Assembly: GCA_002726335.1 (NCBI GenBank)
Contig: PBSR01000134.1
Coordinates: forward strand, 1-11,146
DNA: 11,146 nucleotides
Direction of reading: 5' to 3'
From: Gemmatimonadaceae bacterium
GTDB taxonomy: Bacteria > Latescibacterota > UBA2968 > UBA8231
Position 1 is the first letter of the stretch, and every line of letters starts with the position of its first letter. This document shows, in pieces, positions 5,941 through 10,055 of the stretch. The position numbers were made by a program, and so were the translations under genes. Below the pieces are notes generated by a model, which saw only the letters and a program-made list of their open reading frames with translations, searched no databases and was not told the origin of the DNA.

Positions 5941-6567
5941 TCACTTGTCGAAGTCGCTGTCCCAGTGTGACCCGTCACAGAAGGGCTTGTTCTTCGAGTC
6001 ACCACACCGGCACAGTGTGCGTGATCGGGAGCTGGCGCCCTGGAGGGGTTCAGCGTTCACCAACTCGATATCACCACGGACCACGTACGGGCCCTGCGGG
6101 ATCACCCACACGCTGGCCTCCTCGTCCGGCGCGGCCTGTGCCTCTGTCAGTGTATGGCTGATCGCCCCCGACGGGCAGCGGTTGATCACATCGACGATTT
6201 CCTCGACGGCTGCGCCGTCGGCATCGATACGGGGCTCGGTCTCCTGCATGAACTGAAACACCGACTCCAGATTGCCGGTGCATACCCCGGCATGGGCACA
6301 CAGGCCACGATTGTCGTGAATCGCGATCTCCCTGCCCACGAAGCTGTCCAGCTCGTCCGGTCGGCGGTCCTCCTGCCGCGCTCCCGAGAACCCGACGCGG
6401 ACATGAGAACCGTCGCAGTAGGGTTTCTTGCCGGACTGTCCGCAGCGGCACAGCTTCATGGTCGATGTCGCCGCTACGCTCTCTCCCTGTACCTCGAGAT
6501 TCTGCAGCTGCCGGACAGCGTACGGGCCGTTTTCAGTGCATTCGATCTGGGGCCGCTGCTCTGCCAT
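5941..6567 (-). CDS. CDGSH iron-sulfur protein with tandem CDGSH domains and a Fer4_19-like domain
   Basis: A 208-residue soluble protein with three cluster-binding regions. CDGSH domain 1 has ligands C40, C42, C51 and H55 (CRCGQSGKKPYCDGSH). A divergent mono-cluster ferredoxin-like domain of Fer4_19 type has C90, C96 and C131 (GLCAHAGVC ... RCPSGAIS). CDGSH domain 2 has C186, C188, C197 and H201 (CRCGDSKNKPFCDGSH). CDGSH domains hold redox-active, labile [2Fe-2S] clusters with 3-Cys/1-His ligation. All ligands of both copies are intact. There is no membrane anchor, unlike mitoNEET. A GGAG ribosome site lies 6 nt before the ATG (minus strand, about 6574-6577). It is the first gene of a two-gene unit with the glycosidase-like gene and is divergent from the ECF sigma gene. 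Role in electron transfer, redox sensing or cluster transfer is open. Confidence 0.9.
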   Translation of the reverse strand: MAEQRPQIECTENGPYAVRQLQNLEVQGESVAATSTMKLCRCGQSGKKPYCDGSHVRVGFSGARQEDRRPDELDSFVGREIAIHDNRGLCAHAGVCTGNLESVFQFMQETEPRIDADGAAVEEIVDVINRCPSGAISHTLTEAQAAPDEEASVWVIPQGPYVVRGDIELVNAEPLQGASSRSRTLCRCGDSKNKPFCDGSHWDSDFDK

Positions 6568-6684
6568 CGTGATCTCCCGGTGTGGTTGGGCACCTGGAGC
6601 GGCAACCTACTGAGTTCCCTCGCTCCGGCCAAAGAAAAGTTCCGCATGGGCAAAGGCAGGCTTGCCAGAGTGGGTCCTATAGGC

Positions 6685-6690
6685 AAGGAG
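6685..6690 (+). promoter_or_regulatory. Ribosome binding site deciding the sigma-factor start
   Basis: AAGGAG lies 11 nt before the ATG at 6702 and directly precedes MDDLTTL, where homology to ECF factors should begin. This argues against an in-frame ATG at 6582, which would add 40 residues of low-complexity, non-conserved sequence. Confidence 0.65.
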
Positions 6691-6701
6691 CTGAGATTCG
6701 A

Positions 6702-7859
6702 ATGGATGATCTGACCACACTGATCTCGAGAGTGCACGGGGGAGACCGGCAGGCCTACGGCGACATCGTGGGCCGCTTCCAGCACATGGCGGTGGGTTAC
6801 GCCACGTCCTGCCTGGGCGACCCGCACCTGGCCGAGGATGCCGCGCAGGAAGCCTTCCTGCAGGCCTTCGTCGACCTGGCGCAGTTGCGCGAGCCGGCGG
6901 CCTTCCCCGGATGGTTCCGGCGTATCGTGCACAAGCACTGCGACCAGATCCGCCGTCGTCAGACGCTGCACCTGGTGCCCCTCGAGGAGGACCAGTGGGA
7001 GGCGCGGGTCGAGCCGGTGTCCGGACTGGAACTGGAGGACAGGCGCCAGATGCTGGCGCTGGCGATTCAGCGACTGCCGGAAGCGGAGCGCGCGCCGGTG
7101 ACCCTCTTCTACCTGCGCCAGTACAGCCAGGCGGAGGTGGCGGCCTTTCTCGAGATCCCCGAGACGACGGTCAACAATCGGATGCACAGCGCCCGTAAAC
7201 ACCTCAAACAGGAGCTGTTGGACATGGCAGATCAGGAGCAGCAAGGCAAGCGGGCACCCGACACGGAATTCACCGGGCGCGTGCAGGAGCAGATCGAGGC
7301 GCTCACCAGCCTGCACAACACGCTGGCGGAGCCGATCCGCCAGAGCCTGCTCGAACCCCTTGGTGATGACGTCGCCGTACGCGTGGTCTCCGTGGAGAAC
7401 ACGATCGGGCTGCATGTGCTGCGCAACTTGCCCTATCCGTGCTGCACGTACTCGTTCCAGCCGCGGGGCAGCCAGCGGCGCATCTGCTTCGATATCCATA
7501 TGGAGCTGGTGGCGTGTATCGTCGGCCGACACATCGGCCGGGGCGACGAGATCCGGGTCAAGGATGTGGGACAGATCGCGCCGGACGAGTTCGGCGTCAT
7601 CAACCCGATCGCCCGCGACTTGATGAACGGAATCGTCGCCCTCTGGAGTGAGGTCGTCGACATGGAGATCATCGAACCGGAGGTGGAGACGAGCAACGTG
7701 TATGTCATGGGCTCGTGGATCGCCTCCGACGATCCCATGTTCCACGTGCGCTTCGAGGTGGCCTGGGACGATCGCATCAGTCACATCAACCTGTGTTATC
7801 CGGCGCCGTCGATGGCGGCCGGCGTGGCGCAGCTACAGACACAGGGCGAGCCGGCCTGA
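6702..7859 (+). CDS. ECF-type RNA polymerase sigma factor with a C-terminal FliM/CheC-like domain
   Basis: A 385-residue protein, about twice the size of an ordinary ECF factor. Residues 1-86 match sigma region 2 (HGGDRQAYGDIVGRF, AEDAAQEAFLQAF, then FPGWFRRIVHKHCDQIRR). Residues 112-170 match region 4, with a helix-turn-helix (YSQAEVAAFLEIPETTVNNRMHSARKHL). A linker (170-200) leads to about 200-370, which resembles the middle domain of the flagellar switch protein FliM: VRVVSVENTIGLHVLRNLP (cf. VELxSVxQxTYxEFxRSLP), CFDIHMELVACIVGRHIGRGDE (cf. LEIDxxLAFxxxDRLxGGxG), ALWSEV (cf. REAWEPV) and FEVAWDDRISHINLCYP (cf. FEVxxGxxxGxINLCIPY). The FliM N-terminal CheY-binding peptide and C-terminal SpoA domain are absent. 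Sigma function is well supported. The FliM-like assignment is by recalled consensus. No anti-sigma gene is adjacent, so the extra domain may regulate the sigma part in cis (inference). It is divergent from the CDGSH unit, a possible target. Confidence 0.85.
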   Translation: MDDLTTLISRVHGGDRQAYGDIVGRFQHMAVGYATSCLGDPHLAEDAAQEAFLQAFVDLAQLREPAAFPGWFRRIVHKHCDQIRRRQTLHLVPLEEDQWEARVEPVSGLELEDRRQMLALAIQRLPEAERAPVTLFYLRQYSQAEVAAFLEIPETTVNNRMHSARKHLKQELLDMADQEQQGKRAPDTEFTGRVQEQIEALTSLHNTLAEPIRQSLLEPLGDDVAVRVVSVENTIGLHVLRNLPYPCCTYSFQPRGSQRRICFDIHMELVACIVGRHIGRGDEIRVKDVGQIAPDEFGVINPIARDLMNGIVALWSEVVDMEIIEPEVETSNVYVMGSWIASDDPMFHVRFEVAWDDRISHINLCYPAPSMAAGVAQLQTQGEPA

Positions 7860-7862
7860 CCG

Positions 7863-7888
7863 ACCGTGGCCGAACCGACCCCCACGGT
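7863..7888. terminator. Hairpin between converging genes, possible terminator
   Basis: ACCGTGG (7863-7869) and CCACGGT (7882-7888) form a perfect 7-bp stem with a 12-nt loop. It starts 4 nt after the sigma-factor stop, in the 69-nt gap before the end of the opposing senB-like gene. There is no T-run on either side, so an intrinsic terminator is only a possibility. Confidence 0.35.
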
Positions 7889-7928
7889 GCCGGGTGATCT
7901 CGGGCCGATGGGGCAGAGCGAGACCGCC

Positions 7929-8882
7929 TCAGGCGACTTGTGTCAGCAGGTCGACGAGGGCGGTCCGCTCGGTGTCCGGATCCACGAGGTGGGCACGGCG
8001 GCGTACCCCCGTCAACAGCGATTCGAGGAATTCAGGCCGGTTCTCGCAGCGGGTCAGAAGATCGGCCAGGGCCGTCGTGTCGCCGAATGGGAAGTATCCC
8101 GGATAGTCGGCGCCCAGCAGACCGATCGTGCCGGAGATGCGGGACGAGATCACCGGCGTACCGCAGGCCATGGCCTCGCACACGACGTTGGCGCCTCCTT
8201 CCATCTGCGACGAGAGCACCATAGCCCGGCTTCGGGCGATGAGGCGCAGGGCCTGGCCGTGGGGCAGGTTGCCCAGCCACTGGTAGCGCGGATTGTCCCG
8301 CGCCTCACGGCGAGCCCGTGTCTCCATCTCCGACGACAGCGCCCCCCCGGCATGCAGGATCCTGACCGCCGATTCTGTCGGCAACAGGCGGGCCGCCTCG
8401 GCGGCGCGGAAGGGGTCCTTCACGTCCCGCAGGTGGCCGACCACACAGACTTCGAAACACCCGCGGCGCGTCGGGGGAGGCGATCCCCGTGGCGGTCGCG
8501 CCGACTGTACGATGACATGTGTCCGCCGGCGGAATCGCGCCGGCAGCTCGTCCAGTCCCGCCTGCTGCAACACGATGAAACGGTCGGCCAGCTCCAGCGA
8601 CTGTTGGGCGCTCTCGTCGTGGTGGATATCCCCATAGAGGTCGGTACCGGTGAGGGCGAGGATCAGGGGTGACTCGGGGCGCAGTCGGTGGAACCGGGCC
8701 ACCGAGTCGTGGCTGCGCCGGGCGTGCAGGGCGATGAGAGCGTCGCAGCGCTGGCGGTCGAAGCGCTGGGCGATGGCCACCTGGTGACCGACGTCGCGCA
8801 GCAGCCGTGACCAGTGCAGGGCGGTCATGCGATTGCCGGCGCGAGACTTCGGCGCGGCGGGAGTGACGATGAGGATTCTCAT
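7929..8882 (-). CDS. senB: SenB-like selenosugar synthase (GT-B glycosyltransferase, TIGR04348 type)
   Basis: A 317-residue GT-B fold glycosyltransferase. The N-terminus MRILIVTPAAPKSRAGNRMTA, the blocks LIALHARRS (49-57), LALTGTDLYGDI (75-86) and VVGHLRDVKDPFRAAEAARLLP (147-168), and the C-terminal EGGANVVCEA (228-237) with its E228-x7-E236 motif and GADYPGYFPFGDT match the TIGR04348 group as I recall it. SenB of that group makes a 1-seleno sugar from a UDP-sugar (UDP-GlcNAc) and selenophosphate in selenoneine biosynthesis. Divergent placement next to selD, the selenophosphate source, strongly supports this over a generic GT4 role. The usual partner senA (EgtB-like) is not in the window, so the end product may be selenoneine or another selenium compound. 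No membrane segment is seen. The ATG at 8882 starts the first Rossmann strand immediately. No clear Shine-Dalgarno is visible. Confidence 0.85.
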   Translation of the reverse strand: MRILIVTPAAPKSRAGNRMTALHWSRLLRDVGHQVAIAQRFDRQRCDALIALHARRSHDSVARFHRLRPESPLILALTGTDLYGDIHHDESAQQSLELADRFIVLQQAGLDELPARFRRRTHVIVQSARPPRGSPPPTRRGCFEVCVVGHLRDVKDPFRAAEAARLLPTESAVRILHAGGALSSEMETRARREARDNPRYQWLGNLPHGQALRLIARSRAMVLSSQMEGGANVVCEAMACGTPVISSRISGTIGLLGADYPGYFPFGDTTALADLLTRCENRPEFLESLLTGVRRRAHLVDPDTERTALVDLLTQVA

Positions 8883-9002: not shown

Positions 9003-10055
9003 ATGGCACTGTTCTCAAAAGACAAGACCCTGACGAGCCTCGCCAAGACCTGCGGTTGAGCCGCGAAGGTGAGTCCGGTCGGGCTCGGAAAGTTACTGGC
9101 GGGGTTGCCCCGCAACCTGGATCCCAACCTGCTCGTCGGCTTCGAGACGAGTGACGATGCGGCTGTGTACCGTCTGGATGACGAGCGGGCTCTCGTGCTC
9201 ACGGCGGACTTCATCACGCCGCCGGTGGACGATCCCTTTCTCTTCGGTCAGATCGCCGCGGCCAATTCCCTCAGCGATGTCTTCGCCATGGGAGGTCGAC
9301 CGATCGCGTGTCTGAATCTCGTCGGCTTCCCGGCGGGCGAGCTGGGACCGGAGGTGCTGGCCGGCATCGTCGAAGGCGCTCTGACGAAGATTACCGAGGC
9401 CGGCGCGGTGCTGGCAGGGGGGCACACGACGGATGACGACGAGCCCAAGTTCGGTCTTTCCGTCACCGGGATCGTGCACCCCGACCGCTACTGGCGCAAT
9501 TCCGGCGCGCAACCCGGGGATGTCCTCATCCTGACCAAGCCCATCGGCAGTGGTGTACTGTTCAACGCCAATCTGAAGAAGTGGGTCTCCGAGGAGGCAC
9601 TGGCAGCCTGCGTGGACATGATCACAAGGCTCAACAAGACGGCCTCCGAAGTACTGCAGAGGTTCGAGGTGCATGCCGCTACGGACGTGACCGGTTTCGG
9701 TCTCGGCGGCCATGCCTACGAGATGGCCACCGGGTCGGACGTCACCCTCGAGATCGCCATGGGCAGCGTGCCGGTGATGGCGGAGGCCCTCGAGATGTAC
9801 GAGCGCGGCGTGTCGACGGGTGTCAACGGTGTGAATCGCCAGAACATCCAGTACGCCACGGACTTTGGCGCCGCCAATGAATCGCAGCAGGAGCTGCTGG
9901 TGGATCCGCAGACGAGCGGCGGCTTGCTGGCAGCCCTGCCGGAAGACCAGATCGAGACCGCGTTGGCCGCCCTGGTCGAAGCGGGTGTGGAGCATGCCTG
10001 CGTCGTGGGACGTGTCTCCCAGTTCAGCGAACCACATCACCTCATCATCAAATAA
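9003..10055 (+). CDS. selD: Selenide, water dikinase (selenophosphate synthetase), selenocysteine-containing, read through TGA
   Basis: SelD makes selenophosphate from selenide and ATP, the Se donor for selenocysteine and for SenB-type selenosugar synthesis. From the ATG at 9003 the frame reads MALFSKDKTLTSLAKTCG, then TGA (9057-9059), then AAKVSPVGLGKLLAGLP and a full SelD to the TAA at 10053-10055 (350 residues counting Sec). The TGA is codon 19. It aligns with catalytic Cys17 of E. coli SelD (GCGCKISP), and K22 aligns with Lys20, keeping the C/U-x-x-K spacing. Downstream are the metal/ATP residues D51-D52 (TSDDAAVY), D69 (LTADF), D92 (NSLSDVFAMGG), GGH, TDVTGFGLGGH and DPQTSGGLL. Starting at the GTG at 9069 (328 residues) would lose both catalytic residues. 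A weak AAGTAGG lies 9 nt before the ATG. A second cysteine, C17, precedes Sec (C-G-U). It is followed 18 nt later by the binding-protein gene. Confidence 0.9.
9057..9059 (+). other. UGA recoded as selenocysteine (Sec19 of SelD)
   Basis: The in-frame TGA splits an otherwise continuous SelD reading frame. Conserved SelD sequence lies on both sides (LTSLAKTCG before, AAKVSPVGL after), and the codon falls at the catalytic Cys/Sec position of the family, which is known to carry either residue. A frameshift or true stop would not keep frame and spacing to the catalytic Lys. Confidence 0.88.
9071..9086 (+). other. Bacterial SECIS-like hairpin after the UGA
   Basis: GAGTCC (9071-9076), loop GGTC (9077-9080) and GGGCTC (9081-9086) form a 6-bp stem with one U·G pair (9074/9083). 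The loop starts 17 nt after the UGA. In E. coli fdhF, as I recall it, the SelB-bound SECIS also has a GGUC loop, 18 nt after its UGA. The U at 9074 may stand in for the bulged U that SelB reads. The element lies within coding sequence, as bacterial SECIS elements do. Confidence 0.7.

Follow-up and report, generated by a model that had tools for sequence, protein, structure and literature searches.

The stretch of DNA analysed here, called the window, comprises the 11,146 nucleotides of contig PBSR01000134.1 (assembly GCA_002726335.1, Gemmatimonadaceae bacterium). The gene at 6702..7859 (ATG to TGA, 385 aa) encodes an extracytoplasmic function (ECF) sigma factor fused to the middle domain of the flagellar switch protein FliM, as delimited by its open reading frame (ORF) and translation and by homologues of the same architecture. 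Sigma-70 region 2 lies at 6768..6962 (residues 23–87; Pfam Sigma70_r2, PF04542, 2.1e-9) and region 4 at 7047..7205 (residues 116–168; Pfam Sigma70_r4_2, PF08281, 2.9e-13). Both models exceed the Pfam cut-offs, and no region 1.1 or region 3 model is listed by Pfam for the protein, which presents the set of a complete ECF factor, as described earlier by a reading made without database searches (the sequence-only reading). A variable linker at 7218..7280 (about residues 173–193) leads to the FliM middle domain at 7281..7805 (residues 194–368; Pfam FliM, PF02154, 3.7e-10). Within it, the alignment puts GRGD (7536..7547; residues 279–282) at the place of the FliG-docking GGXG of FliM; all these features are on the forward strand. 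Linker residues 173–189 share 56% identity with the copy at another locus (L001), against 81% for the sigma part and 71% for the FliM part, and the predicted structure has low model confidence at residues 180–188.

Profile searches and structure prediction support the assignment of the C-terminal domain to the FliM middle domain, with the same predicted fold. The PF02154 match reached 40.5 bits against a cut-off of 27 and covered profile positions 10–182 of 192. A phmmer search of the C-terminal part against the PDB retrieved three FliM entries with E-values between 6e-6 and 7e-6, followed by a match at 1.5; a profile of nine domain sequences found the same three at 7e-9 to 9e-9 and more FliM entries at 0.045–0.064. 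The predicted structure matched FliM better than CheC. At E-values up to 1, Pfam listed no CheC family for the window protein and no SnoaL-like or TPR domain in the extension, FliM being the sole family above cut-off there. An unrelated fold such as SnoaL was rejected because FliM ranks first in both the profile and the structure searches. The sequence-only reading had placed a FliM/CheC-like domain at residues 220–370, with an INLCYP block like that of FliM. The FliM identity holds and the CYP block does align with its FliM counterpart, while the limits were slightly narrow (about 194–370) and the CheC half of the label found no Pfam family.

The sigma-FliM fusion proteins form a genuine, conserved family. 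When about 5.8 billion proteins were searched by a word-based method, with residues 176–385 as query, 13 relatives were returned, nine of them with both sigma regions and FliM; among the 13, P0003 is a fragment that contains region 4 and FliM, P0012 and P0013 end before the FliM domain does, and P0014 looks like a mis-joined frame. A second, profile-based search, in which the 7999 best candidates were scored, gave 19 proteins, all from the same family or fragments, and a third, with the most divergent member as query, gave seven, one of them new (fragment P0021). The three relatives with an organism name are all Gemmatimonadetes metagenome-assembled genomes (MAGs). Patterns of close relatives, applied to one genome each of 84,980 species, identified three loci: L001, with a copy 73% identical over residues 1–380; L002, with a partial copy; and one plain ECF. 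Among 64 genomes of the phylum of G001 (the genome of L001), the family was seen in G001 and G002 (the genome of L002) only, with E-values of 4.6e-61 or better and the next match at 3.3e-21. No other domain-matching frame in the phylum loci examined had a sigma part (G056:C130 and G061:C250 stood outside that check), and the weak FliM matches in G061, G063 and G064 are other FliM fusions or fragments.

Since full-length relatives occur independently in other assemblies, an artefact, frame fusion or sequencing error, which the sequence-only reading had allowed for, was rejected. A phage or plasmid origin was rejected as well, no record covering 80% of the protein; the 11 phage matches and the 5 of 221 plasmid matches listed concern the sigma part and do not go beyond residue 215. 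In a comparison of the window copy with that of L001, the sigma part has 0.124 nonsynonymous (dN) and 1.08 synonymous (dS) substitutions per site; in the FliM part dN is 0.191, dS is saturated and the proportion of synonymous differences (pS) is 0.78. The copy in G002 is a remnant (L002:640-1095), in which a formamidase-like gene is followed almost directly by FliM residues 233 onward; this contig lacks the sigma part, through either deletion or assembly.

Compared with FliM, the fusion domain is homologous over nearly the full length of the middle domain, but it is joined to a sigma factor, has lost several motifs and forms a very divergent group. GGXG is absent from all 13 fusion proteins scanned over their whole length (P0001–P0013, P0001 being the window protein), whereas it is kept in 25 of the 26 FliM-domain rows of the phylum; its position holds GRGD in nine of the 13 and GRGE, GHGG or AIGD in the others. 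In the alignment, the DQxxYxEFI block of FliM is gone. The window protein has no Pfam match to SpoA (FliMN_C, PF01052). The N-terminal CheY-binding peptide of FliM follows the pattern [LM]SQ.E[IVL], which occurs in 0/13 of the same proteins, so that the absence of both SpoA and this peptide, as claimed from the sequence, was borne out; fragment P0021 has LSQKEL, but within the FliM domain and not N-terminally. With GGXG, DQxxYxEFI and SpoA lost and no CheY peptide found, the domain is thus a FliM homologue that is not equipped as a normal ring subunit. In FliM, GGXG contacts FliG around the EHPQ motif of the latter, according to the available portion of PMC4642947, and from these sequences docking to FliG through the classical motif appears unlikely.

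CheC and the FliY phosphatases belong to a common fold family with the domain, but their structural match is lower and they have no Pfam match here. Their phosphatase motif, [DS]xxxExxNx22P, is not conserved: it is absent in 11 of the 13 family proteins, including that of the window, and occurs at residue 208 in the two truncated ones, P0012 and P0013. The cysteines of the PCC block also vary across the aligned family. Alignment A1 was made without P0002, P0003 and P0014, and alignment A3 without P0008. In the tree, nine fusion domains were split from 25 other FliM rows by one branch (support 100/100, length 2.43), at which the program warned of long branches meeting; for the tree and its alignment, 4 of 36 rows, short or weak, were left out and two PDB FliM fragments were added.

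Known ECF sigma factors without anti-sigma factors gate themselves through C-terminal extensions, which in the available portion of PMC8999054 are SnoaL-like, TPR or cysteine-rich. The fusion protein resembles them in having regions 2 and 4 followed by a folded extension of about 190 residues, a conserved domain on which homologues, alignment and predicted structure agree, and in that an anti-sigma gene was not found near it. It differs in the nature of the extension: by Pfam, it has neither the SnoaL extension of ECF41 and ECF56 nor the TPR extension of ECF42. A FliM-like extension is in no ECF group described in that portion of PMC8999054, though many groups listed there lack a description. 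We found no account of the architecture among the papers listed by a literature search made mostly without subscription journals and without the 2021 ECF classification (doi 10.1093/nar/gkaa1229), and an earlier mention is possible; the suggestion that no described ECF group has this architecture holds to that extent. PMC7406223 names the anti-sigma factor of FliA 'FliM', which we read as a slip for FlgM.

The other eight genes of the window encode, by Pfam, a GcvT-like protein, two FAD oxidoreductases, an apiosidase-like protein, a CDGSH/ferredoxin protein, a glycosyltransferase, SelD and a phosphonate-binding protein. No anti-sigma or flagellar/C-ring gene was found among these eight scanned proteins, nor an anti-sigma gene among ten neighbours in L012, two of which have no Pfam match. 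The genes on either side are encoded on the other strand, so that the fusion gene looks monocistronic in the window. The neighbours of the L001 copy differ from those of the window. Upstream of the gene, local alignment detected a block common to the window and the L001 copy (6632..6693, forward strand), a possible promoter or 5' leader. Its score of 40 was reached by 0/1941 random 165-base pieces (maximum 32) and by 1/1000 single-base-shuffled pairs (maximum 42), in a comparison of two sequences only, and from this conservation the block of about 60 bases may be the promoter of the fusion gene. A scan with the upstream motif gave two matches in G001, one of which is the fusion gene, no match in G002 and one control match. 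No sigma-70-type promoter or terminator was found at 6450-8000, and the window showed neither an RNA family nor a tRNA.

In this phylum, ECF sigma factors are linked to C-ring proteins in two ways, by the fusion and by operons headed by an ECF gene. FliN/FliG/FliM cassettes occurred in 12 of the 35 FliM neighbourhoods inspected, which are part of the FliM places of the phylum and several of which are cut by contig ends. Five of these cassettes (G001:C75, G056:C258, G057:C25, G058:C330 and G059:C68) are headed by genes for an ECF sigma factor and an anti-sigma factor of the zf-HC2 type, giving the order ECF sigma, anti-sigma, FliN, FliN, FliG, FliM; the operons lie at L013:15346-19845 (-), L104:5280-8824 (-), L094:6814-10360 (-), L096:4943-8478 (+) and L092:5069-8802 (+). 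Pfam confirms the ECF in G001, G058 and G059 and zf-HC2 in G001 and G058, the other assignments resting on BLAST to the G001 genes. The G057 operon has broken frames; Pfam detects region 2 alone in its ECF, and a single FliN was recognised, against two in each of the other four operons. All five genomes have a full-length FlhA match on another contig, and the orphan operon is possibly a C-ring-derived signalling system. These operons differ from the fusion in encoding separate proteins, with a complete FliM (SpoA in 3/3 scanned, GGXG in 5/5), and their ECF shares about 26–30% identity with the sigma part of the fusion at L001. In G001, about 25 kb separate the operon from the fusion gene; G002 is syntenic there, its contig starting at FliM, and a FliM gene is found about 18 kb away from its remnant of the fusion.

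One FlhA and a flagellar operon, for which FliP and FlhA were confirmed, are present in G001 together with seven FliM-domain places (fusion included), 16 SpoA places and ten FliG genes checked. EHPQ and MFxF are kept in 15/15 FliG genes (ten in G001, five in G002). Twelve of them (L056-L062 and L064-L068; seven in G001, five in G002) are standalone and scattered, in genomes with a single FlhA match. Among the 64 genomes, FliG_N matches occur in 29, often in several copies, FliM in 29 and FlhA in 25; G003, G020, G055, G061, G063 and G064 have FliM and FliG matches, weak for FliM in G061, and no FlhA match, which could be due to gaps in the MAGs. In G001, a single chain of 924 aa (L018:9423-12197) contains FliM, two SpoA and FliG, preceded by two FliN-like genes. 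Degenerate FliM middle domains with an unassigned N-terminal region are encoded at L076:8196-9254 (-), L077:7161-8219 (+) and L078:1593-2444 (-); those of G063 and G064 have no GGXG, and we read their N-terminal region as helical. At L045:484-2022 (-), a GNAT acetyltransferase is joined to a degenerate FliM middle domain that scores below the cut-off. From the variety of these fusions, the FliM domain of this phylum acts as a portable module.

We propose, with a probability of roughly 0.55, that the window encodes an ECF sigma factor with its own regulator, in which the FliM-derived domain replaces the anti-sigma factor and gates the sigma factor in cis. The sigma domain would bind RNA polymerase and promoters like other ECFs, and the C-terminal domain would be a FliM middle domain no longer part of the flagellar switch, standing in for a separate anti-sigma factor. 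Most likely, it would stay packed against regions 2 and 4 as long as neither a partner protein (switch-type or receiver-domain) nor a ligand is bound to it. A built-in regulator is plausible by comparison with other ECFs with extensions; that it acts in cis is what we infer by this analogy, as we do whether it inhibits or activates and which signal it would answer. Several points weigh against this proposal. The domain arrangement in the model is uncertain (pTM, the predicted template modelling score, 0.44; mean pLDDT, the predicted local distance difference test, 69), so the packing of FliM on sigma is only conjectural. G002 keeps the FliM part without sigma and, if this is real, the domain can stand alone. 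Neither a conserved neighbour nor an experiment points to a partner, and the upstream block yielded no regulon. We know of no ligand for the GRGD-like loop or the conserved surface.

The same domain might instead use side contacts between FliM units to tether the sigma factor to a flagellar or orphan assembly that resembles the C-ring, so that sigma would be held there and let go when the assembly changes, the switch state driving transcription. The several FliM/FliG/FliN cassettes of the lineage, the five operons headed by ECF and anti-sigma genes, and the position of the fusion and its remnant near a FliM gene on syntenic contigs agree with this, but the lost motifs make canonical ring contacts unlikely, there is no operon link and no C-ring gene was found among the eight other window proteins scanned, so we hold tethering to be improbable. 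An unlikely explanation, in our view, is also that the fold was recruited for its shape, as a small-molecule or dimerisation domain with no link to the switch, like the SnoaL-like tails of ECF41; the phylum does join degenerate FliM domains to other partners, but no ligand motif was recognised and the PCC-block cysteines vary. We consider it very improbable that the tail is a CheC-type phosphatase or a binder of phospho-CheY through which sigma answers chemotaxis signals, despite the common fold, given the motif and peptide counts above and the internal position of LSQKEL in P0021. The phospho-CheY-responsive switch raised by the sequence-only reading has no direct evidence, and GGXG docking appears to be lost too.

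Beyond the built-in regulator, a tentative and rather doubtful extension is that the flagellar switch of this lineage was copied into a signalling device with a transcriptional output, in which orphan FliG/FliM/FliN assemblies would control ECF sigma factors through the sigma/anti-sigma pair of the operon or through direct fusion to FliM. The fusion, carried by a group of uncultured marine bacteria, itself suggests that parts of the motor may have found a second use in the control of gene expression. Occurring in a lineage whose orphan C-ring operons can be headed by ECF genes, it is a concrete candidate that can be tested with one purified protein and, if the proposal is true, the regulators built into ECF sigma factors would gain a new fold.

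The window SelD shares 79% identity with that of G063, 76% with that of G064, 73% with that of G001 and 71% with that of G002. For the oxidoreductase encoded at 1213-2805, identity does not exceed 44% with proteins from G001, G061 and G054 and is 43% with one from G002; by these identities, the window fits the phylum of G001, which is labelled Gemmatimonadetes in NCBI. The SelD at 9003-10055 (+) may be a selenoprotein, with an in-frame TGA at 9057-9059 (reading CGUAAK), presumably at the position of the catalytic Cys or selenocysteine (Sec) of SelD. If this TGA is read as Sec, the SelD ORF, whose start was called at 9069, would be shorter than the actual gene.
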